DNA of 64,000 bases. Source: Actinomyces oris. Its GTDB lineage: Bacteria; Actinomycetota; Actinomycetes; Actinomycetales; Actinomycetaceae. Shown in pieces: positions 17,154-51,363 of the stretch (the first letter of the stretch is position 1; each line of letters starts with the position of its first letter). The position numbers were made by a program, and so were the translations under genes. The stretch lies in NCBI RefSeq assembly GCF_001937665.1, contig NZ_MSKL01000007.1, forward strand, positions 1 through 64,000. Direction: 5' to 3'. The notes beneath the pieces were generated by a model. It worked only from the letters and a program-made list of their open reading frames with translations. It had not been told where the DNA came from and did not search any database.

Positions 17154-17879
17154 TCAGGGCGCGGCGGAGCCCGGGGTCGAGCCGCTCGGGGCGCTGGTGA
17201 CCGGGATGGTGATGGGGCTGTTGGAGGCGTAGCCGTGCTTGAAGGCCCACACCACGATCTCCAGGCGCGACGTCGTCCCGGTCTTGTGGAACAGGCCTGT
17301 GATGTGGGACTTGACCGTCGCCTCGGCGATGGCCAGCAGGGAGGCGATCTTGCGGTTCGAGGCCCCCTCGCACAGAAGGTGGAGCACGTCGCGCTCCCTC
17401 TCCGAGAGGTGGACGCTGCCGTCCGCGCCGCGCACGGAGGCCAGGGCGTAGTCGATCAGGCGCGTCGTCGGCGTCGGGGCCACGACCTTCGCCCCGGAGT
17501 GGACCGTGCGCACCGCCGCGATGATCTCCTCGGCCGGGGCGCTCTTGAGCAGGAAGCCGCTGGCGCCGGCCCCCAGACCCTGCAGGAGGTCCTCGTCGGT
17601 GTCCACCGTGGTCAGCAGAATGACCCGGGTCGACGGCGAGGTGCGAAGCACCTCCCTGGTCATCTCCACGCCGTCCATGTTCTCCATGTGGACGTCGGTG
17701 ATGAGGACGTCGACCTGGTGAGACTGCAGAAACCGCAGGACGGCGCGAGGTGAGCGTGTTGCGGTGAGGACCTTGAGGTCCTTGACGTCGGAGAAATAGG
17801 ACTCCAGATGGGCCAGGGCCATCGCGTCGTCGTCGACCAGGGCCAGGCCGACACAATCGGGAGAAATCTGGGAAGACAT
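17154..17879 (-). CDS. NarL/LuxR-type response regulator next to the RiPP cluster
   Basis: A 241-residue response regulator. The receiver (about 10-128) has the acidic pair in LALVDDDAM, phospho-acceptor Asp near 62 in ITDVHMENMDG and the conserved Lys near 112 in LLKSAPAEE. The output domain (about 155-215) is a LuxR helix-turn-helix: HLSERERDVLHLLCEG followed by SNRKIASLLAIAEATVKSHITGLF. It has a 25-residue Pro/Ser/Thr tail. No histidine kinase lies nearby. It is divergent from the YcaO gene across a 264-bp region, so it is the likely regulator of the cluster (inference). AAGGAG precedes the start. Confidence 0.88.
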   Translation of the reverse strand: MSSQISPDCVGLALVDDDAMALAHLESYFSDVKDLKVLTATRSPRAVLRFLQSHQVDVLITDVHMENMDGVEMTREVLRTSPSTRVILLTTVDTDEDLLQGLGAGASGFLLKSAPAEEIIAAVRTVHSGAKVVAPTPTTRLIDYALASVRGADGSVHLSERERDVLHLLCEGASNRKIASLLAIAEATVKSHITGLFHKTGTTSRLEIVVWAFKHGYASNSPITIPVTSAPSGSTPGSAAP

Positions 17880-18143
17880 GAGTCTCCTTGGGCAGATGTG
17901 TGCAGCCCGCGATCAGTGGGGGGCGCGGCCTGCTGGGAACAGTGAACAAACTACCTGAAAAAACAGATTCGCCGTGTAAACGCTCCGAGACGCGCCCCGA
18001 CGAAAGGCGGTTAGAGCTATCCAAACGGCGAAGAAAGCAATAGATCAAAGGCCGATGCGAGGCCCCGACGGATTCCGGCAGGCTCTTGGGCAGCGGCACT
18101 TCCCCAAGTGTGCCTCCTCTGTCGTTCCCAGGAAGGAGGGTCC
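17880..18143. promoter_or_regulatory. Divergent promoter region of regulator and RiPP operon
   Basis: A 264-bp gap containing the most AT-rich stretch for kilobases (about 17940-18050, with CTACCTGAAAAAACAGATTC and AAGAAAGCAATAGATCAAAG). It must hold both promoters. I see no clear operator palindrome. It ends with GGAAGGAGGG, the ribosome site of the YcaO gene. Confidence 0.55.
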
Positions 18144-19535
18144 GTGTACCGCTCTGCGCTCATTGAGGGCGTCGCCCCATCTTTGGCGCGCGCTGCGTCA
18201 CTCGAATCTCCCTTCGGCCTGGTTTCCCGTTCCACCGAGCTGCCCCAAGCGGCCGGAGAGCCGGTCTTCGCGATCTGGACCGGTCTTCTGGGTGATCCCT
18301 CTGAGGCGCTGAGGTCACAGCGCACCTGGAATCACCGTGCCGAGGCGGGCAACTTCGACGGGGCCGGCGGGGCCATCGACGCCGATCGCGCCAGACACAT
18401 CGCGATCGTGGAGACGATGGAACGCTACTCCAGCTGCTCATGGACGGAGGAGGAGCTGGTGTGGGACACCCCCGCCGGTCTCGGCGAGGCCGCGATCGGA
18501 CCGGAGCGCTGGCCGGCGTGCTCGGCCACCGAGCTGGCGGACCCGGACTGCGGGCTCATCGCCTCAGACCCCCGCGTCCCCCTGCGATGGGTGCGCGGCT
18601 GGTCCTTGACCCGCGGCCGTGAGGTCTTCGTCCCAGCGGTGCTGACATACCTCAACTTCCCGGTGCGCACCCCCTCCGAGCAGTTCGTCAACCCCATCTC
18701 CACCGGCACCGCCGCGCACTCCGACCTGCGCGAGGCCGTCCTGGGTGGCCTGCTCGAGGTCATCGAGCGCGACTCCATCGCCCTGACCTGGCTCCAGCGC
18801 CTGCGCCTGCCCGCGGTCGCCGTCGACCCCAGCACCCTGGGTGAGGAGGTCGCCGAGTACCACCGGGTGGGCACCTCCACCGAGCTGGAGACCCACCTGT
18901 TCGACGCCACCACCGACTACGGCGTCCCCACCCTCTACGCCGTCCAGACCTCGCAGGTCGATCCCGAGCTGGCCCAGGTGGTGGCCGCCACCTGCGACAT
19001 CGACCCGCAGCGGGCGCTGGCCAAGATCTACCGCGAGCTCGCCTCCCTGCGCATCGCCCTGCGCAGCCACGCCCGCGGCCCGCGCGCCCAGGAGATCAAG
19101 GGGCAGGACCTCACCGTGGTCGGTGGCGCCCTGGCCGACGCCGAGCTGTCCATGCGCCACGTCTTCGACTTCCTCCTGGAGGGGGAGCGGCCCGTCCACG
19201 CCCTCGACGGGATCGGCACCCTCACGGCACCGACGTCCAGCGCTGACGGCACCGACGGCAGCAGTGGCGGAGTCGGCCCCGACCCGCTCGAGCAGGTTGT
19301 CGCCAACCTGGAGAGGGCCGGCGCCGAGGCGATCGTCGTCGACATCACCACCGATGAGGCCCGTCAGGTCGGCATGCACGTCATCAAGGCCCTCATCCCC
19401 GAGGCCATGCCCCTGTCCTTCAGCCACCACGCCCGCTACCTCGCCACACCCCGCCTCTACCAGGCGCCCCGGGCGATGGGCCTGACCGTCCACGATGAGG
19501 AGGGGATCAACCCCGTCCGCCAGCCCTTCGCCTGA
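18144..19535 (+). CDS. YcaO-domain azoline synthase of a RiPP cluster
   Basis: About 463 residues. YcaO proteins use ATP to activate a peptide amide so that a Cys, Ser or Thr side chain cyclises to an azoline. Visible signatures are AEAGNFDGAGGAIDADRARHIAIVETMERYS (first ATP/Mg acidic cluster), NPISTGTAAHSDLREAVLGGLLEVIERDS (second cluster), RALAKIYRELASLRIALR and the Pro-rich C-terminus NPVRQPFA, whose position in the active site is conserved. It lacks a fused C-protein domain, so the downstream genes must supply it. Start at the GTG 18144 because GGAAGGAGGG lies just before it; an upstream ATG at 18108 has no site. First gene of the operon; the next starts 3 nt after its stop. Confidence 0.92.
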   Translation: MYRSALIEGVAPSLARAASLESPFGLVSRSTELPQAAGEPVFAIWTGLLGDPSEALRSQRTWNHRAEAGNFDGAGGAIDADRARHIAIVETMERYSSCSWTEEELVWDTPAGLGEAAIGPERWPACSATELADPDCGLIASDPRVPLRWVRGWSLTRGREVFVPAVLTYLNFPVRTPSEQFVNPISTGTAAHSDLREAVLGGLLEVIERDSIALTWLQRLRLPAVAVDPSTLGEEVAEYHRVGTSTELETHLFDATTDYGVPTLYAVQTSQVDPELAQVVAATCDIDPQRALAKIYRELASLRIALRSHARGPRAQEIKGQDLTVVGGALADAELSMRHVFDFLLEGERPVHALDGIGTLTAPTSSADGTDGSSGGVGPDPLEQVVANLERAGAEAIVVDITTDEARQVGMHVIKALIPEAMPLSFSHHARYLATPRLYQAPRAMGLTVHDEEGINPVRQPFA

Positions 19536-19538
19536 GCC

Positions 19539-20309
19539 ATGAGCCCGGCGTCCGCACCACCAGCCACCTCACCGACCGACTCCCAGGAGCCCCGACCCGA
19601 TATGAGCATGACGCCGCCCGCACCGGCCACGCAGCCGGCACCGCAGACCCCCACGGGGCCGGTGACGGCCTACCTGCCCCAGGGCGGGTTCGCGCGCGCC
19701 GTCGTCGGGCGCCTCGCCGGGCAGGGCGACCCCGTCATCCCGGTCGACCAGGGGCTGGTCAGCGCCTACATCCCCTACGCCGACCGCGCGGTTCTCATCG
19801 CCGACCCCGACCAGTCCGGCCTGCGCGAGGACCTCGACACCCTCTCCTTCACCCGGAGCATGCCCTCCCTGGGCCTGGAGCTCTTCCCCACCGAGCTGCG
19901 TTGCGGGCCGCTCGTGGTCCCCGGCCGCAGCGCCTGCTACCGCTGCTACGACCGGCGCCGCCGCCAGCACGGCTACCGCCCCCTGCCCCCCGAGGTCGCT
20001 TCTGAGCACGGCCCGCTGGAGCAGGCCTACGCCCACCACCACGTGCTCCTGGGGGCCGGCCTCATCTCCCTGGCCCTGCAGACCCTGGATGCCCTCGACC
20101 CCCAGGGCCCGACCACGGGAGGCGCCGACGACGTCGCGCCGATCGGCGGCCAGGTGTGGACCATCGACCTCGTCTCCGGCATCACCACCTGCTCGTCGAC
20201 CGTGGCCGTCGACCGCTGCGAGACCTGCTCGGGCCGCTACGCCGGCGGCCGCGACGGCCTGCCCGCGCTCGCGGCCCTCCTGCCCGAGCGACGTGGGGAG
20301 GTGGCCTGA
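19539..20309 (+). CDS. ThiF/C-protein-like cyclodehydratase partner
   Basis: A 256-residue protein. After a Pro/Ala/Thr-rich 40-residue lead, the body resembles the E1/ThiF-like part of azole-RiPP C proteins without a nucleotide-binding motif. Two zinc-type cysteine pairs are clear: CYRCYDRRR (about 130) and CETCSGRY (about 230). C proteins bind the leader peptide and present the substrate to YcaO. This one has no obvious N-terminal winged-helix RRE; that domain is carried by the next gene. It is packed 3 nt after YcaO and its stop lies 1 nt before the next ATG, so the products are probably translated together and form one complex (inference). Confidence 0.78.
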   Translation: MSPASAPPATSPTDSQEPRPDMSMTPPAPATQPAPQTPTGPVTAYLPQGGFARAVVGRLAGQGDPVIPVDQGLVSAYIPYADRAVLIADPDQSGLREDLDTLSFTRSMPSLGLELFPTELRCGPLVVPGRSACYRCYDRRRRQHGYRPLPPEVASEHGPLEQAYAHHHVLLGAGLISLALQTLDALDPQGPTTGGADDVAPIGGQVWTIDLVSGITTCSSTVAVDRCETCSGRYAGGRDGLPALAALLPERRGEVA

Positions 20310-20310
20310 G

Positions 20311-22104
20311 ATGGCCGCAGACGCCGGAAACTCCGTCATGCGAGCCGGCGACGTCGGCCGTGCCGCCCGCCGCGACCTGCAGTTCCGCATCCCCCGCAGG
20401 CCCGTGGTCCGGCTGGGGCTGCGCGCCCGCCCCGAGGAGAACGGCTGGATCATCGACGGCGCCCGCAAGAGCCAGGTCCTGGGCGGGGCCTTCGCCCGTG
20501 AGCACATGGGCCCCCTGCTCCAGGCCTGCGACGGCACTCGCACCCTCGACGAGATCGGCGCGGCCACCGGCATCGGCCCCCAGGCCGCCTTCGAGGCCGT
20601 CTCCCTGCTGTGGACCGGCGGCATCGTCGAGGAGGGTGACACCGAGCCGGCCCCCGGCGACCCGTCGCCCGAGCTGGCACGGTTCCTCTCCCGTCTGGGC
20701 GACTCCACCGGCGTCAACGACTCCTGGCAGGACGCCGCCCGCCGCCTGGCCGCGGCCCAGGTCGCCGTCGTCGGGGACAACGAGCTGGCCGGTGAGATGG
20801 TCGCCGCCCTGGAGCCCACCGTGCCCGAGGTCCGGCTCGACGGCGCACCCCGCCGGGGGGATACGCTCACCGTCCTGATCGAGACCGTCGACTGCACGGC
20901 CCGCTCCCAGGAGGTGGCGCGCCGCTGCCGGGAGGAGGGCATCGCGCTGCTGCGGGTGCGCGCCGAGCAGGAGGCGGTGACGGTCGGCCCCTACGTCGAC
21001 GAGGCCTTCTCGCCCTGCCTGGCCTGCGCGTGCGCCGATGAGCCCGAGATCGGCCCCCGCCCCGAGGCCGCCCGCCACGATGTCGTCGTCGGCCTGGCCG
21101 CCCGGGCCGTGGCCGCCATCATCGCCCGCGCCACCGTCACCCACCTTCCCGGGGACGCGCGGCGCACGGACCTGGCCACCTTCACCTACTCCGACCGCCC
21201 GGTCGTCTCCCGCCCCGGCTGCCCCGTCTGCTCGGTGGCCGGGCAGGGAGAGGAACCGGTGCCGGTGGCGCCCTCGGCCCCCGTGGGGGCCCGCTACGAG
21301 CAGTCCGTGGCCATCCCACCGGCCGCCTTCGTCGACTCCAAGGGCCACCAGCAGCACTACAAGCCCTCCAACCTGCGCCTTCAGCGCGAGTTCCGCGACT
21401 GGCCGGTCTGCCCGCGCACGCCTCTGCCGCCCGCCGACCTGGAGCGCCTCGACCAGCCCTGGCCCGTCGCGCACCCGCTCACCGATGACGGCTCCGACCC
21501 CGACCTCGTCACCCGCCCCACCCCGGCCGAGCTCGCCACGATCCTGGCGCTGTCGGTCGGCGTGCGCGAACCGCTCGGAGCCGAGCCCACCGGCCAGGGA
21601 CCGGCCGAGGCCGCCCAGAGTCCGCTGAGTGCCAAGCTGCGCCGCTGGACGGCCGCCGGCGGCAACATCGGCTCGGTGACCGCCTACGTCCTCGTGCCTG
21701 AAAGCGGGCAGGCCGGACATGAGGCGAAGGAGGCGGCCGGGCAGCGGCCGGCCCCGGGCACCTATGTCTACATCGAGCGCGACCACGCCCTGGCCCTCAT
21801 CGGTCCCGCCCCCGCTGCGGACGCGGAGACGGAGCCCCTGCCCGACGGCGTCGGCGCCCGGATCGTCCTGACCGGCAACGTGGACAAGGTGGCCCGCAAG
21901 TACTTCTCCTTCGCCCTGCGCATCGCCGTCCAGGACTGCGGCTGCTCCTTCGAGGTCATCCGCCTCGTCGCCGACGCCCTGGGAGTGCCGCTGCGCGCCC
22001 GGGCCCGCTGGGACGAGCAGCGCATCGCCCGGGCGCTGGGCACCGACCCGGCCCGGGAGCCGGCCTGCATCGTCGTCGACCTGGGAGGCCGCCGTGCGCA
22101 CTGA
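20311..22104 (+). CDS. Fused RRE + E1-like + SagB-type dehydrogenase
   Basis: A 597-residue, three-part protein. Residues 20-110 look like a PqqD-type RiPP recognition element (leader-binding winged helix; GWIIDGARKSQVLG, LLQACDGTRTLDEIGAATG). Residues 115-320 form a ThiF/E1-like fold with zinc-type cysteines CLACAC and CPVC. Residues 335-597 are a nitroreductase-fold azoline dehydrogenase of the SagB type: HQQHYKPSNLR near its start, GGNIGSVTAYVLV, GTYVYIERDHAL, KVARKYFSFALRIAVQDCG and VIRLVADALGVPLRARARWDE. SagB-type enzymes use FMN to oxidise azolines to azoles. The fusion ties leader binding, cyclisation and oxidation together. The next gene overlaps its end by 11 nt. The frame stays open to 20089, but the ATG at 20311 follows the previous stop directly. 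Confidence 0.82.
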   Translation: MAADAGNSVMRAGDVGRAARRDLQFRIPRRPVVRLGLRARPEENGWIIDGARKSQVLGGAFAREHMGPLLQACDGTRTLDEIGAATGIGPQAAFEAVSLLWTGGIVEEGDTEPAPGDPSPELARFLSRLGDSTGVNDSWQDAARRLAAAQVAVVGDNELAGEMVAALEPTVPEVRLDGAPRRGDTLTVLIETVDCTARSQEVARRCREEGIALLRVRAEQEAVTVGPYVDEAFSPCLACACADEPEIGPRPEAARHDVVVGLAARAVAAIIARATVTHLPGDARRTDLATFTYSDRPVVSRPGCPVCSVAGQGEEPVPVAPSAPVGARYEQSVAIPPAAFVDSKGHQQHYKPSNLRLQREFRDWPVCPRTPLPPADLERLDQPWPVAHPLTDDGSDPDLVTRPTPAELATILALSVGVREPLGAEPTGQGPAEAAQSPLSAKLRRWTAAGGNIGSVTAYVLVPESGQAGHEAKEAAGQRPAPGTYVYIERDHALALIGPAPAADAETEPLPDGVGARIVLTGNVDKVARKYFSFALRIAVQDCGCSFEVIRLVADALGVPLRARARWDEQRIARALGTDPAREPACIVVDLGGRRAH

Positions 22105-22831
22105 CTTCGAGACGCTGCGCGAGCTCGTCGCTGGCTTGTCCACCGGATCGGACACTCACCCCGCCGAGCCGACCTCCGACGGCCTGGCCACGCGCCGCCC
22201 GCGCCCGCCGCTGGACTGCCAGGTGCCGGACGCGCTCGTCCCCGGCCCCCAGGAGCCCTACCCCTACAGCCTGCACCAGACCTTCGAGCGCCGCTCATCA
22301 TCGACCACCTACGGTACCGAGCCGCTCGAGGCCGAGCCCCTCCTGGCCATGGTGCGCGACGCCCTGGCCGACGACGCGAGCACCTGGGGCCAGGACGCGG
22401 CGGCCTGCCCCCTGGAGCCCTTCGTCCTCCTCCTGCGCCCGAGTGGCGCTGAGCCGGGCATCTACCGGGTGAGGCTCGACGGCGTCGACCTCGTCCGCCC
22501 CCTGCCGCAGGCTGAGGAGATCGAGGGCATGGCGGTGCAGAAGGAGTTCGCCCGCGCCGGCGCCATCGTCTCGGTGGCCGCCAACCTCGATGAGGCCGAC
22601 GCCTGGGGCGGGGCGGCCGGCTACCGCTTCACCATGGGCCGCAGCGCCGCCCTCATCTACTCGCTGCACCTGCGCGCCGTCGCCCGGGGACTGGTGGGGA
22701 CGGTCTTCGCCGGCTTCGCCACCTCGGCGGTACGCCACCTGCTGGACTCCGACGGCGTCAGCCGCCACCAGATGTTCGCCGTCACCATCGCCAGTGCGCA
22801 GACGGCGCCGCCCGATGAGGCGGCCGGCTGA
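22094..22831 (+). CDS. Second nitroreductase-fold (SagB-type) dehydrogenase
   Basis: A 245-residue nitroreductase-fold protein. SLHQTFERRSSSTTYGTEPLEAEPLLAMV is the usual N-terminal FMN-binding Arg-Arg-Ser segment, and the core continues through EPGIYRVRLDGVDLVRPLP, GAGYRFTMGRSAALIYSLHLRAVARGLVGTVFAGF (dimer and flavin region) and the C-terminal MFAVTIASA. It starts at a GTG inside the end of the fused dehydrogenase gene. Nitroreductase-fold enzymes work as dimers, so this protein could pair with the dehydrogenase domain of its neighbour or act separately on a different ring (inference). Confidence 0.8.
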   Translation: MRTDFETLRELVAGLSTGSDTHPAEPTSDGLATRRPRPPLDCQVPDALVPGPQEPYPYSLHQTFERRSSSTTYGTEPLEAEPLLAMVRDALADDASTWGQDAAACPLEPFVLLLRPSGAEPGIYRVRLDGVDLVRPLPQAEEIEGMAVQKEFARAGAIVSVAANLDEADAWGGAAGYRFTMGRSAALIYSLHLRAVARGLVGTVFAGFATSAVRHLLDSDGVSRHQMFAVTIASAQTAPPDEAAG

Positions 22832-22940
22832 CCCAGTCACCAGTCGCGCGCTCCGGCGGCCCGCCGCCGGCACGACCGACCCAGAACTGCATACCGCGTC
22901 ACAGAAGTTCCACAGACCACCCCGTTCGCGGGGTTGGGGC

Positions 22941-22982
22941 CCGGTCCCGGCAGACCGGACCCCCGGGGCCCGAACGGGCCCC
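22941..22982 (+). promoter_or_regulatory. Structured leader of the precursor gene
   Basis: Two hairpins lie 40-85 nt before the precursor start: CCGGTC/GACCGG (22941-22946 with 22953-22958) and GGGGCCCG/CGGGCCCC (22965-22972 with 22975-22982). They could stabilise the precursor mRNA or end upstream transcription. The ribosome site GAAGGAGGTGA at 23007-23017 remains free. Confidence 0.5.
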
Positions 22983-23025
22983 GCTCCTGCCCACAAGACA
23001 TCTGAGAGAAGGAGGTGAACAGCAT

Positions 23026-23229
23026 ATGACGAACAGCTCGATTGATCTCACCCTCGCCGACAGTGACTTCGGTGTCGAGGAACTGCCCGAGGGCAACGCC
23101 CTGGGTTGCGCCTTCAGCCACGCCAGCGCGTCCTGCCCGGCCAGCGCCGCCTCGGCCTCGTGCCCGGCCAGCGCCGCCTCGGCCTCGTGCCCGGCCTGCG
23201 CCGCCAGCGCGTCGACGACGTCCTGCTGA
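23026..23229 (+). CDS. RiPP precursor peptide with repeated Ser-Cys-Pro core
   Basis: A 67-residue peptide. Residues 1-27 are an acidic leader (DLTLADSDFGVEELPEGNALG) of the thiazolylpeptide type. Residues 28-67 are almost only Ala, Ser, Cys, Pro and Thr, with six Cys (28, 37, 46, 55, 58, 67). Three tandem nine-residue units (36-44, 45-53, 54-62) read SCPASAASA twice and then SCPACAASA, followed by STTSC. Cys are expected to become thiazoles and many Ser dehydroalanines. The ATG at 23026 has a near-perfect ribosome site, much the strongest in the cluster, as expected for a precursor. The exact leader cleavage point cannot be read. Confidence 0.88.
   Translation: MTNSSIDLTLADSDFGVEELPEGNALGCAFSHASASCPASAASASCPASAASASCPACAASASTTSC
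23131..23211 (+). repeat. Three 27-bp tandem repeats in the precursor core
   Basis: Units at 23131-23157, 23158-23184 and 23185-23211. Units 1 and 2 differ at one base (TCC or TCG at the first Ser); unit 3 differs by an AGC-to-TGC change (Ser to Cys) and by its last two codons. The near identity at DNA level points to recent duplication. Confidence 0.95.
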
Positions 23230-23239
23230 CGACCCCATG

Positions 23240-23275
23240 GTGGCGGGTAGGGGACCGGGGTCCCCTACCCGCCAC
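23240..23275 (+). terminator. Perfect 17-bp hairpin after the precursor gene
   Basis: GTGGCGGGTAGGGGACC (23240-23256) pairs with its exact complement at 23259-23275 over a GG loop, 10 nt after the precursor stop and 52 nt before the protease start. There is no T tract. It probably works as a partial terminator or 3' stabiliser, giving more precursor mRNA than enzyme mRNA. Confidence 0.8.
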
Positions 23276-23327
23276 TGGCGGTACCCCGGAGCCCCGAGAA
23301 CCGACCTGAGGGAGCCAAGAGCCCACG

Positions 23328-24545
23328 ATGAGCACGGTGATGAGTACGGCGACGAGAACGCCGACGATCCCTGGTAGCCCCCCGACGTCTCCGATCCCGC
23401 GCCTGCGCCGCGGCGTGAGCCTCATCGTCGGGATGGACAACCAGCCGATGCTGTTCGACTCCGACTCGGGCAAGTACCACCGGCTCGGCGCGGCCGCCGC
23501 CTTCATCGTCAACCAGTTCGACGGGGTGCGCCCCCTGCCGACCATCATCGAGGAGCTGCCCCAGGACATCGACGAGGCGGGCGCCCAGCGCATCACGAGC
23601 CTGGTCGACAACCTGCGCGACAAGGGCCTCCTGTCGGGGAGCGAACCCGCCCCCGCCGTCCCCGAGGCCCCGGTGCGCACCCGGCGCACCCGCGGACGCC
23701 ACACCGCCCAGCCCCGCCGGGCCCGCCACCTCAAGGTCGAGAGGCCCCGCCGCAGCGGGGGCTGGTGGCTGCCCCGCATCATCATCGCCCGCAAGTACCA
23801 CCGGATCGTCGCCCCGGTCGTCACCCTGCTCCAGCGCCTGCCGGCTCCCGCACTCAGCTGGGTCTTCCTGGCGCTGGCCGCCTGCGGGTACGCGGCCGGG
23901 GCCATGGCGCTCAGCTCCCTGGCCGGCGGCCCCCGCCCCGGCGTCCTCGTCTTCGTCACGGCGGTGGCGATCCAGCTGGTGAGCATCCTGCTCCACGAGT
24001 CCTGGCACGCCATCGTCGCCGGCTACCTGGGCACCCCGATCCGGGGACTGGGGGTGGCGCTCATGTTCTGGGCGATCCCCATCGCCTACGTCGACCGCAC
24101 CGACTCCTACCGGGTGCGCTCCCGGCGCGGGCTGACCATGCTGGCCCTGGCCGGCATCTTCTCCGACGGCGTCGTCTGCGGCCTGGAGGCGGCCATCGCC
24201 TGGGCCTCGACGGGAACGGTGCGCCAGGTGGCCCTGACCCTGTGTGCCTTCCAGCTCACGATGCTCGTGACCAACCTCAACCCCCTCACCCAGTCCGACG
24301 GCGTCGCCGCGGTCGAGGCGGCCACCGGCTCGGTCAACCTGCGCGGGCGCTCCATGTTCGTGCTGCGCTGCGTCCTGGCCCGCCAGCCCCTGCCTCCCGC
24401 CCTGGCCGTCATGCGGCCCGCGGTGCGCTGGGGCTACTTCATCTACGGGCTGCTGTGCTCTCTTCTCGGACTGCTGGCCTTCGTGATGAGCATTGTATGG
24501 ATAGGCTACTGGCTGTACGTCCTCGTGAAAGGTTTCCTCCTATGA
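23328..24545 (+). CDS. RRE-fused M50 (site-2-protease-like) membrane metalloprotease
   Basis: A 405-residue protein. Residues 25-105 resemble a PqqD-like RiPP recognition element (RLRRGVSLIVGMDNQPMLFDSDSGKYHRLG, then FIVNQFDGVRPLPTIIEELP). A basic linker (115-145) leads to about six membrane helices. The zinc site HESWH is at 223-227 inside a hydrophobic helix, and the second M50 motif NPLTQSDG is at 318-325, giving the third ligand Asp near 324. Site-2 proteases cut peptides within the membrane. Here the RRE would bring the modified precursor to the protease for leader removal, possibly coupled to release (inference). The next gene overlaps by 4 nt (ATGA). Confidence 0.87.
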   Translation: MSTVMSTATRTPTIPGSPPTSPIPRLRRGVSLIVGMDNQPMLFDSDSGKYHRLGAAAAFIVNQFDGVRPLPTIIEELPQDIDEAGAQRITSLVDNLRDKGLLSGSEPAPAVPEAPVRTRRTRGRHTAQPRRARHLKVERPRRSGGWWLPRIIIARKYHRIVAPVVTLLQRLPAPALSWVFLALAACGYAAGAMALSSLAGGPRPGVLVFVTAVAIQLVSILLHESWHAIVAGYLGTPIRGLGVALMFWAIPIAYVDRTDSYRVRSRRGLTMLALAGIFSDGVVCGLEAAIAWASTGTVRQVALTLCAFQLTMLVTNLNPLTQSDGVAAVEAATGSVNLRGRSMFVLRCVLARQPLPPALAVMRPAVRWGYFIYGLLCSLLGLLAFVMSIVWIGYWLYVLVKGFLL

Positions 24546-27184
24546 CGCAGCCGGTTCTCTCTCGTGCCGGTGCCTCCCCCTCCCGACAGCCACAGCCGCA
24601 GCCCGTATCCGCCGTGACCCCCGGGGAGCCCATCCCGTCCGCTCCGTCCTCCGCCGTACCAGCGTCGGTACCGGCATCGGAGCCGGAGCCCCCGGCCCTG
24701 GCCCAGCCCGCCGTGGCCCTGCCGACCCTCGTGCGCCTGGGCGGGCTCCCGGTGCGGGCCGTCCCCGAGACCAGCGCCGCCGTCATCGGCACCCTGGACT
24801 ACCTGCGCCGGCTCGACGAGGTGCTCGACGGCGCCGCGGAGCAGCTGCTCGACCCGCTCTACGAGATCGTCCCCACCCTGGACAAGACCGAGCGCCGCCC
24901 GGTCCTGCGCGCCAAGCGCTGCGTCTTCCAGGGGCGTGCCACCGACCTGTCCGAGGAGGTCCTGGCCGTCCTGCCCGCTGAGCTGCGCGCACTGCTGGAG
25001 CGCTGGGACGCCCTGGTGGCCCGCAAGGACGAGACCCGCGCGCGCCTGGCCGTCCTGGTCGACGTCGACCTGGACCGCAGCCGCGAGCTGCTGGCGGCCG
25101 GCCTCGACGAGCCCGGCTACCAGGAGGCCCTGGCGATCGCCGCCCCGGCCCTCATCTCCACCCTGGCCGCCCGCGGCCGCAGGCTCGAGGACCCCCGCGT
25201 CCTGCGCACCCTCTACACCCTGGCCACCCGGGCCGCCCTCAAGACCAGCCCCTTCTCGGGACTGACCACCGTCAACGAGGCGGGCCGGCCGTCCACCGGG
25301 CGCAGCCACCGCATGGTGGCCACCCACCTGGCCTACCGCATCCTGAGCGCCACCGCCCAGGACCTGGCCCCCGACAGCGCCCTCTACCTCGAGCCCGCCC
25401 CTGTGCGCCGGGCCTTCAGCGCCGCTCCCGGCGCAGGCGTGGCCGGCGCCTACGGCCAGTACCCGCCCAGTGAGGCCGAGGCGGAGGCGCTGAGCGTCCT
25501 CGGCGAGCACGAGTACGGCAACGGCATGGTCTTCCGCCAGGAGACCGTCCAGCCCGCCCGCTGGCTCCAGGAGACCCACGACGCCCTGACCGGCGGCGGC
25601 ATGCACGCCGTGCTCAGCGTGCGTGACGCCTGCGAGCGCGTGGGTGGCACCGACCCGCGCCTGCGCCTGGAGCGGCTGCTGGCCTCCGGCGCCATCGTGC
25701 CGCACGTGCCCTGGTACCGCGGGGAGAACCCCTTCCCGCTGCTGGCCGCCTCACTCTCACCGGAGCAGCAGCGCCAGTGGGGCAAGGACCTGGCCTGGCT
25801 GGCCCGGCTCGACGACGCCGTCGGCGCCGCCGACGGGCCCGGCCGTGCCGAGCTCCTCAACCGCACGGTGCGCCTGGCCGAGCGCGTCTTCCCCGACGGC
25901 GAGCTCGGCGAGCGCCCCAGCGGCTTCCTCTACGAGGACCGCGAGTCGACCCGCAGCTGGGTCGATCCCCTCGAGGACGCCCCCTTCGAGCAGGACGTCA
26001 AGACCCTGGGCGATCTCGCCGACCCCTGGGTGACCCGCTCCCACATCTACGACCTCATGGTGGCCCGGTTCGTCTCGCTGTTCGGCAACGGTGGGGTGTG
26101 CAAGGACCCGCTCGCCTTCTTCATGACCATCGCCCACGCCCCCGACGGCGACCAGGAGATGCTGCGCGCCGCCGGGCTCGACTACGCCGCCGGCCCCGAC
26201 ACGGAGCGTGCCGCCCTGTCCGGCGGGCTCTCCGGCTCGCCGAGGCACCTGGGCGCCTTCCTCCAGCCGGTGGCCCCCAGCGCCCGGACCTACGCCGCCG
26301 GCGGGGGGCTGACCGTCGTCAACGCCTTCACCAACGCCAACGGCTCCCTCCAGGCCCGCTTCCACCGGCTCCTGGGCTCCGGCTTCCGGGAGCGCCTGGC
26401 CACACGGATCCGCACCGCCTGGGGCACCGAGCGGGTCCTGGAGATCCAGGCCAGCACCGAGTGCAACACCGGTCAGGCCGTCTCCTGCGGGCTTCTGCCG
26501 CCGCTGGGCCTGCCCGGTGAGCCGGGGGCGCCGGACGCGGTCCCCCTCAGCTCCCTGCGGCTCGTCCACGACCCGGCCACGAGCACCCTGTTCCTGGCCG
26601 ACGACGCCGGGCCCGTGGGACTGGCCTACCTGGGCCTGACCCCCCAGTACCTCCTGGGCGGCTACCTGTCCTGGCTGGTGCTGCTGAGCGACCCGTGGTC
26701 CCGGCTGCCCCCGTTCGCGGATCACTGGACCAGCCGCCGTCGGGACCTGGGCGGGCCCCTGCCCGACGAGGTGATGCACTCCGAGCGGACCGTGGCCGGC
26801 CGGTTGGTGACCCGGCGCGAGTCCTGGACCTTCCCGGCCGACCAGATCGCCCCGCTCATGGACCGCGACCTGACCACGACCCTGCTGCACATGGACGACC
26901 TGCGCAAGCAGTGGGACATACCGACGGAGGTGTTCGTCCACCAGCACATGCCCTCCCAGGGCGCCACCTTCGACCAGCACAAGCCCCGCTACGTGGACCT
27001 CACCTCGCCGGTCTCGCTGTTGGCGCTGCGCGGCTGGATCGACCCCGGCGCCGCCCACATCAGCTTCGTCGAGGCCCTCCCGGCCCGCGGCCAGGCCCTG
27101 GGGCTCACCCAGGACGGTGAGCCGACGGTGGCCGAGTACCTGGTGGGACTCCAGTGGCCCAAGAACCTGGGAGGCATGGCATGA
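24542..27184 (+). CDS. LanB-type dehydratase, glutamylation domain
   Basis: An 880-residue protein matching the N-terminal (Lant_dehydr_N) part of class I lantibiotic dehydratases as found split in thiopeptide and goadsporin clusters. It transfers glutamate from glutamyl-tRNA to Ser/Thr hydroxyls of the precursor. The family signature RAALKTSPFSGLTTV is at about 230-244. Later landmarks are SHIYDLMVARFVSLFGNGG, VNAFTNANGSLQARFHRLLGSGF and RYVDLTSPVSLLALRGWI. The first 60 residues are a Pro/Ser/Ala-rich extension. Start at 24542 because it overlaps the previous stop (ATGA); the frame is open far upstream. The elimination domain is absent and is encoded by the next gene. Confidence 0.88.
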   Translation: MTQPVLSRAGASPSRQPQPQPVSAVTPGEPIPSAPSSAVPASVPASEPEPPALAQPAVALPTLVRLGGLPVRAVPETSAAVIGTLDYLRRLDEVLDGAAEQLLDPLYEIVPTLDKTERRPVLRAKRCVFQGRATDLSEEVLAVLPAELRALLERWDALVARKDETRARLAVLVDVDLDRSRELLAAGLDEPGYQEALAIAAPALISTLAARGRRLEDPRVLRTLYTLATRAALKTSPFSGLTTVNEAGRPSTGRSHRMVATHLAYRILSATAQDLAPDSALYLEPAPVRRAFSAAPGAGVAGAYGQYPPSEAEAEALSVLGEHEYGNGMVFRQETVQPARWLQETHDALTGGGMHAVLSVRDACERVGGTDPRLRLERLLASGAIVPHVPWYRGENPFPLLAASLSPEQQRQWGKDLAWLARLDDAVGAADGPGRAELLNRTVRLAERVFPDGELGERPSGFLYEDRESTRSWVDPLEDAPFEQDVKTLGDLADPWVTRSHIYDLMVARFVSLFGNGGVCKDPLAFFMTIAHAPDGDQEMLRAAGLDYAAGPDTERAALSGGLSGSPRHLGAFLQPVAPSARTYAAGGGLTVVNAFTNANGSLQARFHRLLGSGFRERLATRIRTAWGTERVLEIQASTECNTGQAVSCGLLPPLGLPGEPGAPDAVPLSSLRLVHDPATSTLFLADDAGPVGLAYLGLTPQYLLGGYLSWLVLLSDPWSRLPPFADHWTSRRRDLGGPLPDEVMHSERTVAGRLVTRRESWTFPADQIAPLMDRDLTTTLLHMDDLRKQWDIPTEVFVHQHMPSQGATFDQHKPRYVDLTSPVSLLALRGWIDPGAAHISFVEALPARGQALGLTQDGEPTVAEYLVGLQWPKNLGGMA

Positions 27185-28341
27185 GCACCTACGACGACGC
27201 CCAGCCCAACCGGCGGGAGCAGCGCAACCAGCCCAGCCGGCTCATCCGCTCCCGGAGGCTGCGCTGGCTCGGCGGGCGCTCGCGGGCCGGTGAGCAGGCG
27301 GAGCGCTCCGAGGCCGGTCAGCCCGGTCAGGGCGCCTCGACCCCGCAGGTGGGTGGATCGATCCCGGGGATCCAGCCCCTGGAGATGGCGGCCGCCGACT
27401 TCGGCAACCTGCGCGCCCAGCACAGCTCGATGCGTCAGCGGGGGGCGGCGCTGGCCAACCAGCATGAGAGCGTCGGCTGGCTGTACGCGCGGATCTACTG
27501 CGCCGGCGGGGACGACACCGACGCCCTGCTGCCCGAGATCGCCCAGTGGCTGGCCCGGGCCCGCGGACAGTGGGACATCCGCTCGGCACACTTCCTGCGC
27601 TTCGTCGACCTGCGCGGGCACCACATCCGGCTGCGGCTCAAGGCCGTTGAGGGTGTCCTGGACGACGCCTACGCGAGCATGAGCGAGCTGGGGGCCGTGG
27701 CCCAGCGCACCGAGGTGCGCACGGTCGAGCGCCTCGTCACCGACCCGATGACCGGCGGGATCGGTGCCAGCCGGCCCGGCATCACCTTCGGTGTCTACGG
27801 CCCCGAGTACGACAAGTACGGGGGAGTGGCCGGCGTCGAGGAGGCCGAGCGGCACTTCTACGTCTCCAGCCGATGGTGCCTGGACCACCAGGTCTGGCAG
27901 ATCCCGCGGCCGGTGCCGCGGGCGGCTCTGGCGGCGCGGTTCCTGGCTCTGGCGGCCCGCAGCGCGCCGCTGCCCGAGGCCGAGCTGCTCTCCGCCCACC
28001 TGCGGATGTGGGGCTCGCGGCTTCCCGCGCACCTGCGTGACGGCAGCGCCCTGGGGCCGATCGTCCAGCAGCTGCTGGAGGTCATCGAGTTCCAGTTCGA
28101 TGAGATCCCGTCCTGGAGTCAGGCGGCCGCTGCCGTCGGCGAGCTGGCAGACGACGCCGGACGCGCCATCGGGGTCATGGGGGCGGGCACCGGCGGCCGT
28201 CGGGCCCTGGACCTGCTGCACATCGACGTCAACCGGCTCGGCCTCAACCCGGCCGAGGAGTGCATCGCCGGGCTGTGCGCCCGTCAGCTCCTGACCGGGG
28301 GCGCCGTGCCCCCGGCCCAGCCTTCAGTCGCCGTCGGGTAG
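27181..28341 (+). CDS. SpaB_C-type protein (glutamate eliminase or pyridine synthase)
   Basis: A 386-residue protein with the thiopeptide-type biosynthesis (SpaB_C) domain from about residue 98: GWLYARIYCAGGDDTDALLPEI, then RFVDLRGHHIRLRL (146-153) and FGVYGPEYDKYGGVAGVEEAERHFYVSS (203-230). In split class I systems such a protein removes glutamate to form dehydroalanine; a homologous version closes the pyridine ring of thiopeptides. With only one copy here, elimination is the safer assignment. The first 95 residues are a basic, polar extension. ATG 27181 overlaps the LanB stop. It is the last gene of the operon. Confidence 0.85.
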   Translation: MSTYDDAQPNRREQRNQPSRLIRSRRLRWLGGRSRAGEQAERSEAGQPGQGASTPQVGGSIPGIQPLEMAAADFGNLRAQHSSMRQRGAALANQHESVGWLYARIYCAGGDDTDALLPEIAQWLARARGQWDIRSAHFLRFVDLRGHHIRLRLKAVEGVLDDAYASMSELGAVAQRTEVRTVERLVTDPMTGGIGASRPGITFGVYGPEYDKYGGVAGVEEAERHFYVSSRWCLDHQVWQIPRPVPRAALAARFLALAARSAPLPEAELLSAHLRMWGSRLPAHLRDGSALGPIVQQLLEVIEFQFDEIPSWSQAAAAVGELADDAGRAIGVMGAGTGGRRALDLLHIDVNRLGLNPAEECIAGLCARQLLTGGAVPPAQPSVAVG

Positions 28342-47467: not shown

Positions 47468-48448
47468 ATGAAGCAATCTGCGATTGTCCGTCTTGGGGGT
47501 ATTCGAGCAGTCGCAATCTTCCTCCTGAATATAGCTGGGGCGTTGATCTCGATCCTGCTTCTACCGGCGGCGCTCCTGTATCCAATTGCATCCGGGCATC
47601 GTCCTGTCGTGGAAGTTCGTGATGAGGCCGGTATCTATCACGAGCAGGCTCTTCGCCATGGGCTGGAGGAGCAGGTCTACGATCGTGAGGTTCGCATCGC
47701 GGTGCTCTCAGTTCCCGGATCGGGCATTAGCAATATTGATGAGGAGATTATCAAGTACGCGAGTGATGGCACACAAGGCTCGTCTTGGTTCAAGGATTCC
47801 GACGTCGATAGCCCAGTGAATGGAACGATCCTCTTCGTGGTAGCGCCCGAGTCTCACTGGGTACGTTGCTACGCGGCGAAGGACCTGCAGCTGTCAGCCG
47901 ACAAACGGACGGCCATCGAGAACGCGGCGGGAAGCCACTACGCTCAGAGCGACTGGGATGACGGGACCGTGGCGATGGGGCGGCAGCTGGCGACCTACAT
48001 CGGTTCAAGCGATGGAAGCAGCATGATTGTGCGGGTCGTCGGCGGAGTCCTCGCCTTCCCTGTGGGAACCGGATGGCTTGTTTACTACTTGTGGCGGGGC
48101 ATGACTGCTCGGCGGCGTGCTCAAGGGGCACGCCATGAGATGATGCGGATCGTCTACACCTACGATCTCACCGAGCTGCAGGCGGGAACCCTGCCGGAGG
48201 GGTCCCGCCAGAGCCGGGACGTTGGTTCCGACTACCGACGATTCCGCGACGAGTACGACACCGTCAGCCAGCAGTGGAAGGACTTCGGGGAGCCTCGTGG
48301 TGCTCAGTGGTTCGGCCGCGGTGTTCTCGCTCAGGCCACTCGTCTCGCCGAGAGGACGGCCAGTTTGGCCGAGCTCGACGCCGCTGTGAATGTCGGCGCC
48401 GCGGCCCGGGCGGACGCGGCCCCGAATCCTGGGGGTGCAGTGCTGTGA
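47468..48448 (+). CDS. TPM-domain membrane protein, paralogue 2
   Basis: A 326-residue protein. Membrane helix at about 12-38, then an extracytoplasmic TPM-like domain (about 46-183): PVVEVRDEAGIYHEQALRHGLEEQ, REVRIAVLSVPGSG, GTILFVVAPESHWVRCYAAKDL, NAAGSHYAQSDWDDGTVAMGRQL. A second helix (about 187-207) and the shared cytoplasmic motif YYLWRGMTARRRAQ...YDLTELQAGTLPEGS follow. It ends soon after AERTASLAELDAAV with an Ala/Gly tail and so lacks the last 100 residues of its paralogues. TPM domains occur in photosystem-repair and assorted membrane proteins; the role here is unknown. Its stop overlaps the next GTG. Confidence 0.75.
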   Translation: MKQSAIVRLGGIRAVAIFLLNIAGALISILLLPAALLYPIASGHRPVVEVRDEAGIYHEQALRHGLEEQVYDREVRIAVLSVPGSGISNIDEEIIKYASDGTQGSSWFKDSDVDSPVNGTILFVVAPESHWVRCYAAKDLQLSADKRTAIENAAGSHYAQSDWDDGTVAMGRQLATYIGSSDGSSMIVRVVGGVLAFPVGTGWLVYYLWRGMTARRRAQGARHEMMRIVYTYDLTELQAGTLPEGSRQSRDVGSDYRRFRDEYDTVSQQWKDFGEPRGAQWFGRGVLAQATRLAERTASLAELDAAVNVGAAARADAAPNPGGAVL

Positions 48449-50097
48449 AGAAGCTGCCAACGGTATCTGAGCTCGGTGGGATGAGAGCGATCCTCGGCTA
48501 CGTGGGCAATCTCCTCATTGGTGTGGCTCTTGTTGCTGCTCCATTCATCATCAATGGTGGACAATCACCCTTCTACCCCTCGAAGCAGTTCCACCCGACG
48601 GTCGAGATTCATGATGAGCCCGGTGTTCTTCCTCAGGACTTCATTGAGTCCGACCTTAAGAAGCTCACCTTCCGGCAGCCGACTCATATCGCTGTGGTTG
48701 ATGTGAGCAACTCGAAAGTTCAAAACCTTGAGCAGGAGGTTCAGAACTACGCCCGCACCCACGCCACTGACGTCCCTTGGATATCATGGACGGATTCTGA
48801 ACGTTGGGCCGACAATGTGTTCGTGATCGCTGCTGCACCCAACGCCAATTATGATGAAAGGCTGGAGGGGCAGGTAGCGGGATACTACTACGGTTCCCGG
48901 CTGCAGATCAGCGAAGAGGGAAGGGAGGAAGTATGGGGCGTCACGGAGTTGAAAATGATAGAACGCGACGAGGTCGGGCGTGTTCTAGAATCCGCCAAAG
49001 TTGCATCTGACTACATTGGTGCTCAGTTAAATCCTGTCAGGGTGTGTGCTCAAATCACGTTATTCTTCATCTTCTTCATCGCTGCGAGCAAGTGGATTCG
49101 ATATTATTTAGGTCGAGGGAAACGGGCGATGTCTGGCATTCAAGAAGCGCGTGAGGCATACTCTCAGGCGATGGCCGGGCGCGCAGCTGTCAGTGACTAC
49201 CTTCGACTCATCCCTGCCGGTGACATCTACGGCATTCAAGTGATCGCCCGGTATAAGGTGCTGCAGCGGCACTATCGCCGACTTGATCGCGCCTGGAAGA
49301 TCATAGGGAACCCCATTGGCCTTCAGTGGTATGGAATGAGGCGTGGTCGTCTTGCTGAGTATGTCAAGGTCTACTCCGTGCAGCTCCGCGCCATGCAGCA
49401 GACGGTTGTCAACTGTGCTCAGCTCTTGACGAGGAGAGGGACCTGGCAGGAGTCATGGGAAAACGAGTATGAGCTCGTGCAGCGAGATATTGCGGCAGTA
49501 GCACGTATCTTCTCATATGTCCCGAAGGATCATCAATCGTTCTCGAGGGAGGCGCTGAACTGGGTGAATCTAAAGCGGGCTGAGCTTGATTCTACTGCCA
49601 CGAAGGTATTAACCGGAATAATGCTCCCGTCCGATGCGCTTCGTGAACTGAGCCGCCTCTCCACTGAGGCGAAAAAGTTCGCTGAAGAGGCAGTTGACAA
49701 ATTATTCCACGGCCCCCTCAAGCGAGCGCATTATAAAGATTTTAGGGAATACCTGACGAGCTACGGGCAGGAATTCCCGAAGTGCGCGAAAGATGTTCTG
49801 AGATTTTCTTCCAAGCCTCAGTTCAGAGTCGGTGCTCATGGCGTTTATCTTGTGAAATTCTCAGACTCTCCTGATGACCAGCAGATCTTCTCCAACGTTT
49901 CCACGACTGTTCGTATGACCCCCCACTCTCCGGCCGCTTCCTATGTTGCCTTGAGGGCGGAGGTTCCGGGCCCCATGTCTATTTATCCGCCAGTCCGAGA
50001 CATATCGGATGCCTATTTTTATGCCATAGCGGCGCCGGCAGTGGAAGACAAGTCTAAGGTCAAGAAGAATCGAAAGTGTAGGTTGAGGCTCGCATGA
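48445..50097 (+). CDS. TPM-domain membrane protein, paralogue 3 (long)
   Basis: A 550-residue protein with the same plan: helix (about 13-32), TPM-like extracytoplasmic domain (about 45-190, FHPTVEIHDEPGVLPQDFIESDLKKL, IAVVDVSNSKVQNLEQEVQNYARTH, WADNVFVIAAAPNANYDERL), helix (about 196-215) and a long helical cytoplasmic part (KWIRYYLGRGKRAMSGIQEAREAYSQAM, YKVLQRHYRRLDRAWKIIGNPIGLQWYG). A unique C-terminal extension of about 130 residues ends in a basic KSKVKKNRKCRLRL tail. Base composition is clearly less GC-rich than in flanking genes. Start is the GTG at 48445, overlapping the previous stop. Confidence 0.75.
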   Translation: MKKLPTVSELGGMRAILGYVGNLLIGVALVAAPFIINGGQSPFYPSKQFHPTVEIHDEPGVLPQDFIESDLKKLTFRQPTHIAVVDVSNSKVQNLEQEVQNYARTHATDVPWISWTDSERWADNVFVIAAAPNANYDERLEGQVAGYYYGSRLQISEEGREEVWGVTELKMIERDEVGRVLESAKVASDYIGAQLNPVRVCAQITLFFIFFIAASKWIRYYLGRGKRAMSGIQEAREAYSQAMAGRAAVSDYLRLIPAGDIYGIQVIARYKVLQRHYRRLDRAWKIIGNPIGLQWYGMRRGRLAEYVKVYSVQLRAMQQTVVNCAQLLTRRGTWQESWENEYELVQRDIAAVARIFSYVPKDHQSFSREALNWVNLKRAELDSTATKVLTGIMLPSDALRELSRLSTEAKKFAEEAVDKLFHGPLKRAHYKDFREYLTSYGQEFPKCAKDVLRFSSKPQFRVGAHGVYLVKFSDSPDDQQIFSNVSTTVRMTPHSPAASYVALRAEVPGPMSIYPPVRDISDAYFYAIAAPAVEDKSKVKKNRKCRLRLA

Positions 50098-51362
50098 CTC
50101 AAGAAAATCATAAACGTGAAGGAGGTGGGTCGTCGAGTGCGATCTCATTTGCGGCAAATGTACTGCTGCGCGCGGCTATGATTCTTACACTGCCGGTCAT
50201 GATGTTTTTCTCCCCAATGCTGGGTTATGTTCCGACTGTCAGTGTGCATGACCAAGCGGGAGTGTTTGATCGTGAGTTGTTGGAGCGCGAGCTGGGGGAG
50301 CTGAGGCTCCGTCAGGACATTCGTTTTGAGGTCATTTCTCTGTCCGGATGGGGAATTAAGAATCTGGATGCGGCTGTGGCGTCCTTCGCAGACCAGGAGT
50401 TGGAGTACAAGAACGATATTAGAACGGTCGACTATAGGAACTGGAAGAAAGGAGTCGTCATCATCGCGGTGGCGCCCCGCGCACATCAGGTCGGCGTGTA
50501 TCCGGGTGCCGATGTATCGCTTAAACGTTCGGAGCAGGTTGCCATTCAGGATGCTGCGGAGACCCAGTTCTCTAATCAGGACTGGAATGGTGGCGTTCTG
50601 GCTATAGGAAATAAAACCGAGACGTACTTGGGTGCCTACGGTAGCGGACGTGCGCGTACAGGTGTCGCTATTGCTGCTGTCGTGAGCCTCTGGGGTGCAA
50701 TAAAACTGTTTCTTTATCTTCGTCGCGGTATTATTTCTCACCGCATGGCAAGACTTGCTGCCAGTTCATATGGACAAGTGACCTATGATTATGACTCGAC
50801 TGCTCTGCGAGTAGGCACCCTTGACTCAAGTGCTCCCGAATCGCGAGAGCTCGCAGCGCGCTATGAACGGTTTGAGCAGGACTACCGTAATGTGACGCTT
50901 GCCTGGCAGGAATTCGGTGACCCTCAAGGTCTCGACTGGTTCGGTAAAAACGTGTATGACAGCGCGAAGAGCCTGCAGGAGCGTTCGGCGGCACTCGACG
51001 ATGGTGATGACGTCATTGTGGATACGGTTTCAATATTGACGATGTCGCCCACATGGTCGCGATCCTGGGAGAAGCAGCAGGAGCCGGTCCTGGAGAAATT
51101 GAGAGCAGTCATGCGAATGGCCGGATCGGTGCGTCGGCGTAGTGCTGTCGACCGTGAGAGCATCGCAAGATGGGTGGCTCAGCAGAATCGGAGGCTCGGA
51201 GAGCTGACCGTTGAGCTCGACAAGCGTGAGCTAGCCCCGGTTGAGGCGTTGGCTGAGTTGGATGGGATGTCGAGAATTATTGATCTGGTGGTTGCGGCAC
51301 TTGAGCAGCGACGAGAGGCGGTTGTTGAGGCAGTCGTGACATCCAGCGTGTCGGTGTGTTGA
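50094..51362 (+). CDS. TPM-domain membrane protein, paralogue 4
   Basis: A 422-residue protein. Helix (about 20-42), TPM-like domain (about 48-180: VPTVSVHDQAGVFDRELLERELGELRLRQDIRFEVISLSGWGI, KGVVIIAVAPRAHQVGVYPGADV, QDWNGGVLAIGNKTETYL), helix (about 190-208), then the shared YLRRGIISHRMARLAASSYGQVTYDYDSTALRVGTLDSS and FEQDYRNVTLAWQEFGDPQGLDWFGKNVYDSAKSLQERSAALDDGDDVIVDT. This C-terminal part aligns best with paralogue 1. Overlaps paralogue 3 by ATGA. AT-richer than the chromosome around it. Function unknown. Confidence 0.75.
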   Translation: MTQENHKREGGGSSSAISFAANVLLRAAMILTLPVMMFFSPMLGYVPTVSVHDQAGVFDRELLERELGELRLRQDIRFEVISLSGWGIKNLDAAVASFADQELEYKNDIRTVDYRNWKKGVVIIAVAPRAHQVGVYPGADVSLKRSEQVAIQDAAETQFSNQDWNGGVLAIGNKTETYLGAYGSGRARTGVAIAAVVSLWGAIKLFLYLRRGIISHRMARLAASSYGQVTYDYDSTALRVGTLDSSAPESRELAARYERFEQDYRNVTLAWQEFGDPQGLDWFGKNVYDSAKSLQERSAALDDGDDVIVDTVSILTMSPTWSRSWEKQQEPVLEKLRAVMRMAGSVRRRSAVDRESIARWVAQQNRRLGELTVELDKRELAPVEALAELDGMSRIIDLVVAALEQRREAVVEAVVTSSVSVC

Positions 51363-51363
51363 T

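Follow-up and report, generated by a model that had tools for sequence, protein, structure and literature searches.

An Actinomyces oris operon predicted to make a linear azole- and dehydroalanine-containing peptide of goadsporin type

Goadsporin, from Streptomyces sp. TP-A0584, has a core of 19 residues that carries six azoles and two dehydroalanines (Dha). Its synthetase needs the motif X1-(S/T/C)-X2, with azoles at T2, T5 and C8, and rejected large or charged residues at X1 (E, R, Y, W); the substitution V3E blocked azole formation, and the Dha at S4 and S14 depend on the azoles at T5 and S15, i.e., on an azole at the next position (PMC5303826). Components of its own are the fused cyclodehydratase GodD, the ABC transporter-peptidase GodB for leader removal and the acetyltransferase GodH. 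Tripeptide blocks are described for goadsporin as well as for nostatin A, phazolicin and the spongiicolazolicins (PMC11583998). Spongiicolazolicins A and B, from Streptomyces sp. CWH03, are linear azole peptides, 29 and 28 residues long, for which assays showed no antibacterial activity (PMC8838263, a review). Coryneazolisins have a core of 10 C/S/T residues, an Ile and 5-7 more C/S/T (PMC4603692), and dehydrazoles such as carnazolamide, for which no activity was found, use a LanM-like dehydratase and an NHLP-type leader (PMC10676384).

Here we analysed a 64-kb stretch of Actinomyces oris contig NZ_MSKL01000007.1, hereafter the window, from a genome of 3.12 Mb in 46 contigs. An earlier note on this DNA had described a compact one-strand azole and Dha cluster with a divergent response regulator, and this layout held: the operon occupies positions 18144-28341 of the plus strand, its genes are joined by overlaps or short gaps, and all of its frames are open (Table 1). 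The boundaries of the YcaO, fusion, LanB and SpaB_C genes were refined, and for YcaO a start at 18108 is possible as well. Upstream lie a copper-ATPase-like gene and an LRV_2 gene and downstream lies purB, the first and last named by reading their translations; no histidine kinase is encoded in the operon. Elsewhere in the window, G+C is about 0.54-0.56 at 48000-52000, compared with 0.66 to 0.75 over most of its length.

Table 1. Features of the operon and its divergent regulator, with positions in the window and the matches on which each name is based.
Feature	Position	Strand	Evidence
LuxR/NarL-type response regulator	17154..17879	-	PF00072 81 bits; PF00196 57.5 bits
YcaO cyclodehydratase (D protein)	18144..19535	+	TIGR03604 418 bits; PF02624 209 bits
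Small E1-like partner (C-like)	19539..20309	+	Paired Cys motifs; TIGR03882 30.8 bits (below cut-off, 36.9)
E1-like/SagB fusion	20311..22104	+	TIGR03882 34.0 bits; TIGR03605 38.9 bits (both under cut-off)
Second SagB-like protein	22094..22831	+	TIGR03605 E 0.026; PF00881 E 0.0055 (both weak)
Precursor	23026..23229	+	NF033482 38.2 bits (cut-off 25); triplet register
16-bp hairpin between precursor and protease genes	23240..23275	+	No U tract
PqqD-M50 membrane metalloprotease	23328..24545	+	HESWH motif; PF05402 26.6 bits (cut-off 23.4); PF02163 weak
LanB, putative Ser/Thr glutamylation enzyme, GodF type	24542..27184	+	9jhq match; Pfam blank
SpaB_C, putative glutamate-elimination enzyme	27181..28341	+	PF14028 94 bits

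As with goadsporin in the descriptions of PMC5303826 and PMC4603692, the operon combines a GodF-type LanB with a separate eliminase and no [4+2] enzyme, and its precursor offers X1-(S/T/C)-X2 motifs with Ser directly before predicted azole positions, a likeness of sequence register only. Unlike goadsporin, it has a discrete YcaO, two E1-like proteins, a split dehydrogenase and a PqqD-M50 protease, and the scan of operon proteins and neighbours returned no fused cyclodehydratase, peptidase-ABC transporter or acetyltransferase. Lanthipeptide-type dehydratases together with YcaO, and no [4+2] protein, are features it has in common with the coryneazolisins as PMC4603692 presents them, whereas the Actinomyces core follows a triplet register. 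The predicted placing of Dha before azoles recalls the dehydrazoles (PMC10676384), but no LanM-like DUF4135 dehydratase domain occurs among the operon proteins.

The YcaO protein is the single YcaO match in the window's genome (E<=0.001), and the solved structures that come nearest to it by sequence are those of LynD, MusD and TruD, two further YcaO chains ranking below them. In the small E1-like protein, C133, C136, C227 and C230 are invariant across 22 sequences, and it and the fusion both match the TOMM leader-binding model TIGR03882. A profile of the fusion matched the SagB-type dehydrogenases 8pz5/5lq4 at 4e-12 and, more weakly, MusD/TruD (3e-4/6e-4), and the fusion carries an invariant Lys-Tyr pair, K530-Y531; a catalytic KY is mentioned for McbC in PMC8442711. 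This pair is missing from the second SagB-like protein in an alignment of nine. Against the two-domain nitroreductase 3eo7, the second protein matches residues 325-494 (E 1.9e-5) and the E1 fusion the half at 72-238, and in an Acidobacteria locus (L076) both SagB parts lie within one ORF. As the second protein matches the other half of 3eo7, we read the dehydrogenase as one enzyme on two chains, of which the second SagB-like protein is probably the C-terminal half, with the N-terminal half carried by the fusion. The second SagB of the earlier note is refined in this way. Of its fused RRE-E1-SagB protein, the E1 and SagB parts stand at matches below cut-offs, while the RRE is unconfirmed, the Pfam search having given no match at the N-terminus of the fusion.

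Domain searches for the families named in the earlier note returned YcaO and SpaB_C, SagB weakly, and no Pfam domain at all for LanB, although the solved GodF structure 9jhq matches this protein over query residues 57-851 (phmmer 1.4e-31; profile 2.1e-60); together these matches bear out a machinery for azoles and Dha. The SpaB_C protein keeps the motifs HxRxR, YxPExxKYGG and HxxxNR. A reading in which azoles are made but LanB and SpaB_C do not dehydrate, and instead add an amino acid as the PEARLs class does, could draw on the invisibility of LanB to Pfam and on a Lys, in 10 of 10 aligned SpaB_C sequences, at the position that we take to be the elimination Arg of NisB. The same Lys, however, stands in other SpaB_C proteins too (L058, L077), and with the near full-length GodF match, the dedicated SpaB_C partner and Ser at X1 before azole sites, like the Dha of goadsporin (PMC5303826), this reading is improbable, though it is the alternative that survives best.

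A pyridine ([4+2]) synthase, the hallmark of thiopeptides, was not found in the window's genome by PF14028, by motif or by direct query. The genome has one PF14028 match. Four Nocardiopsis thiopeptide loci have two SpaB_C-type genes side by side, the second member lacking HxRxR and HxxxNR in all four pairs and the first keeping both, like the window protein. Because PF14028 misses the ring enzyme of berninamycin-like loci, we added a direct protein query with that enzyme, which at E<=0.1 drew a blank in the window's genome and in two genomes with linear clusters but recovered the enzyme in the genome that the query came from and in one further genome. Seven linear loci of the genus of L151 (probably Streptomyces) have one SpaB_C each within the stretch examined, a count for which PF14028 alone is insufficient. 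Since the eliminase motifs are kept and the ring-enzyme searches were blank, the product is most likely linear, and we rejected the thiopeptide reading on both grounds.

That reading, in which the NCBIfam name of the precursor is right and a pyridine synthase encoded elsewhere joins two Dha into a macrocycle, is less probable still, with each operon gene already assigned and the LanB grouping away from thiopeptide LanBs. What speaks for it is that NF033482 ('thiocillin family') is over its cut-off for every family precursor scanned (the window's, seven in one set and one in another) and that berninamycin-like loci carry the same azole module. Three Nocardiopsis thiopeptide precursors scanned gave no NF033482 match, however, and so the family name is a weak guide; YcaO clades of this sort are likewise coloured thiocillin-like in PMC8442711.

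The leader of the precursor runs to ...EGNAL, and its core of 41 residues, GCAFSH...STTSC, is a series of 14 X1-Z-X2 triplets, the last without X2, which read from NAL|G as GCA FSH ASA SCP ASA ASA SCP ASA ASA SCP ACA ASA STT SC. Across the 22 close-clade loci, window included, triplet middles are C, S or T at 294 of 294 positions (266 of 266 over the 20 distinct cores); the same count off-register gives 118/267 at X1 and 36/247 at X2. Every close-clade core beats its shuffles, with a highest p of 0.0034, and the cores have 11 triplets in four loci, 13 in three, 14 in 14 and 15 in one. The units rest on a DNA repeat of 27 nt (23134-23205 in the window). At the middles C, S and T interchange between cores, which would fit azole sites, and Ser at X1 precedes C 97 times, T 25 times and S five times. 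Two features count against this fit by analogy with goadsporin: Glu stands at X2 in 6 of 273 triplets, though V3E blocked an azole there, and Phe stands at X1 once in each core, where that synthetase rejected the large or charged residues E, R, Y and W (PMC5303826). From the register, the window product is predicted to carry as many as 14 azoles and five Dha (M 3209.99).

The precursors of distant relatives (13 loci; 35 of the 36 peptides bear a [SA][CT]P anchor) can be divided into five triplets, a single hinge residue and four further triplets. Upstream offsets agree at 105/105 positions, or at 138/140 when -12 is included. Downstream, the hinge frame gives 140/140, compared with 89/140 and 8/140 in the other frames, and shuffles never reached it (p<5e-5); these counts belong to a partly post hoc model, noticed on 16 peptides and counted on a set that includes them along with newer ones, all chosen for C/S/T richness and not for register. 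A hinge-free period of three was rejected for those 16, where it accounted for only 127/166 positions in a count that had the L056_1 core cut at the wrong motif. Among the 36, L055_3 has no anchor, the starts in L186 are uncertain and one core is repeated (L184_2 = L151_3); outside them stand the first precursor of L184 (core = L151_2), an L190 peptide with a TFEISDYSD leader and, from the remote locus L152, two precursors without the SCP anchor. The spacing of goadsporin can be written as 3+1+3 triplets. The 29 and 28 residues of the spongiicolazolicins, likewise of tripeptide blocks (PMC11583998), equal the length of the 5+1+4 core with and without a last residue, a likeness of descriptions and length; the core in the window exceeds both in length and is hinge-free. 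The genome G044 (A. timonensis) holds both a hinge-type (L054) and a hinge-less (L048) cluster.

The earlier call of an RRE-M50 protease was confirmed by the PqqD match over cut-off and the HESWH motif. This protein also matches the daptide metalloprotease model NF041824 (8e-25, 87.7 bits, cut-off 300). For M50 enzymes such as EpeP, both cleavage and export of epipeptides are proposed (PMC10885120), and by analogy an export role for the M50 protein here is possible. The hairpin (folding z -3.58 for 23228-23325) folded in 24 of 25 precursor-protease gaps, the gap in L055 being too long. Across 11 close relatives, eight cells changed on both sides (0/500 shuffles as high) and two pairs covaried, a number reached by 120/500 shuffles, and the kinship of the sequences inflates such counts. 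The hairpin is possibly an attenuator or processing site and may set precursor excess.

The operon revealed no gene for export or immunity. In L054 an ABC ATPase and permease adjoin SpaB_C (Pfam), and of 15 family loci checked beyond the close clade 12 have both partners (L054-L056, L075, L076, L150, L151, L184-L186, L200 and L201), the pair not being found in the other three (L189, L190, L202). None of the 21 close-clade loci has the pair, nor does the 64-kb window; L046 and L047 match the ATPase only, and elsewhere in the window's genome we found one weak permease match at 31% identity. With the pair absent from all 21 loci and the window, the hinge-less clade is, by these searches, without a local exporter.

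Turning to distribution, the LanB protein is 96% identical to that of the A. oris type strain, 94% to that of A. naeslundii and 91% to that of A. johnsonii, and of 213 family genomes 27 have a LanB match, 24 of these within the genus (window included); the three matches from other genera are weak and come with YcaO proteins that fall outside this cluster family. Besides the window we compared 24 genus loci, 21 from the close clade and three distant. The gene order that the earlier note suggested seeking in other Actinomyces was found, nine genes with the regulator included and divergent, in 20 of the 21 close-clade loci, and L036, the remaining one, starts inside the operon and is cut by a contig end. 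Because the order is kept in these relatives, the nine-gene arrangement is not chance. Between SpaB_C and purB, five loci (L033, L038, L039, L044, L051) have a minus-strand gene of about 570 aa that the window lacks, whose L033 copy is SLFN_AlbA_2/HATPase_c_4 by Pfam, and this gap is possibly an insertion hotspot.

All eight biosynthetic genes are kept in the three distant genus loci (L054-L056; LanB identity about 40%). The 3.4 kb or so upstream of them showed no divergent regulator, but a regulator match of 40% lies in L055, 3.3 kb past SpaB_C. This eight-gene set recurs with its order unchanged in Streptomyces sp. ISL-43, in L150 (same order of bacteria, another family) and in L151 (same class). 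In two Acidobacteria MAGs the locus begins with SpaB_C and the search for a precursor identified none; in one of them, L077, the second SagB was without a match. In the genus of L151, YcaO relatives (1e-20) are present in 111 of 392 genomes, and 19 neighbourhoods drawn from these comprise seven with the full enzyme set, two berninamycin-like, two cut short and eight without a LanB match. Of 396 order genomes, a search with the fusion returned full-length members in 5, and of 396 phylum genomes in 2, the window's own being counted both times. Six further loci (L080, L084, L085, L090, L057, L059) are azole clusters with one SpaB_C each and several precursors that combine a TFEV/TFEI-type leader with near-continuous C/S/T cores. 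More distant YcaO relatives (L192-L199) have no LanB match in the stretch examined, and L192 and L198 have Cys/Gly-rich candidate precursors.

In every gene dN is below dS for three pairs, the highest ratio, about 0.48, being that of the small E1-like protein. Frames are broken in two of the 21 close-clade loci, LanB being split in L044 and the E1 genes (C/E1-SagB) frame-merged in L035, and these breaks may be real or sequencing errors. A decaying locus whose product is no longer made, which such breaks and the lack of a local exporter would suit, is the least probable alternative of all given the open frames of the window, dN < dS throughout, a register unbroken in 22 of 22 loci and the kept hairpin.

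Two loci, L187 and L188, connect this family to thiopeptides. We call them berninamycin-like on the basis of what we take to be a berninamycin core and of an extra enzyme that matches the thiostrepton-named chain TsrE (7cww, 7e-9) and, weakly, a pyridine-synthase profile (21 and 35 bits). Their azole module (YcaO, C, E1-SagB, SagB2) is the one found in Actinomyces, whereas LanB, eliminase and precursor differ and no M50 gene lies in the stretch examined; PMC4603692 assigns berninamycin a discrete cyclodehydratase. In the YcaO (100/100) and E1-SagB (100/98) trees they fall in one clade with Actinomyces inside a larger linear-cluster set, a placement at the level of the clade and not of an exact sister. 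In contrast, in the LanB tree, which has some long branches and a midpoint root, their LanBs join those of the Nocardiopsis thiopeptide and of other azole clusters (94/96) and stand apart from the linear family (100/99). As the azole genes group with Actinomyces while LanB groups elsewhere, the berninamycin-like loci look like chimeras, whose azole module would have been captured from the linear family.

Taken together, the operon very probably makes a linear azole and Dha RiPP of the goadsporin/spongiicolazolicin type, and not a thiopeptide. As we picture it, the leader would recruit YcaO and the two E1-like proteins, which would close a ring at the middle position of each X1-(C/S/T)-X2 triplet, and the split two-domain SagB would oxidise the azolines to azoles. 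The GodF-like LanB would then glutamylate Ser at X1, directly before an azole, SpaB_C would eliminate the glutamate to give Dha, and the PqqD-M50 protease would remove the leader, probably at NAL|G, with no [4+2] ring closed; the released peptide might have an antibacterial or signalling role. Besides the Glu and Phe residues noted above, we count against this reading the missing Pfam match of LanB, the SagB/E1 matches under curated cut-offs, the lack of an exporter or immunity gene in the operon, the thiocillin family name, the frame breaks in L044 and L035, the Lys in SpaB_C and the two anchorless L152 precursors.

The suggestion of a new class or a new branch stands in its second half. A GodF-like dehydratase, the goadsporin triplet and published tripeptide blocks argue against a new class, and the chemistry would be of a known kind, the triplet corresponding to the experimentally defined azole motif of goadsporin; a distinct branch of the goadsporin kind is what remains. 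New are the gene set, the hinge-less cores of 11-15 triplets and the strictness of the register across loci. The cluster is not described in the passages covered on Actinomyces azole RiPPs and oral biosynthetic gene clusters; the 31 gingiva-enriched Actinomyces RiPP clusters of PMC8549736 may include it.

We also put forward, tentatively and as something short of an even bet, a wider picture of a hidden family across Actinomycetota and Acidobacteriota, misfiled as thiocillin-like and governed by a strict three-residue code, X1-azole-X2, in which Ser at X1 would stand for Dha. Its Actinomyces branch would have lost the hinge and the local exporter and would grow by 27-nt repeats into a regular rod of 11 to 15 azoles. 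Berninamycin-like macrocyclic thiopeptides would have come about through capture of the azole module, from beside the Actinomyces branch, by a thiopeptide set for dehydration and ring closure. A practical caution is that the family name in public libraries may file linear peptides under thiopeptides.

For human oral Actinomyces, whose inhibitory metabolites are described as largely uncharacterised in PMC8549736, a predicted azole and Dha peptide is now attributable. Its precursor code is strict enough to predict each modification along with exact masses, and the boundary of leader and core is testable. Beyond the genus, the proposed module swap would link linear azole peptides with macrocyclic thiopeptides.
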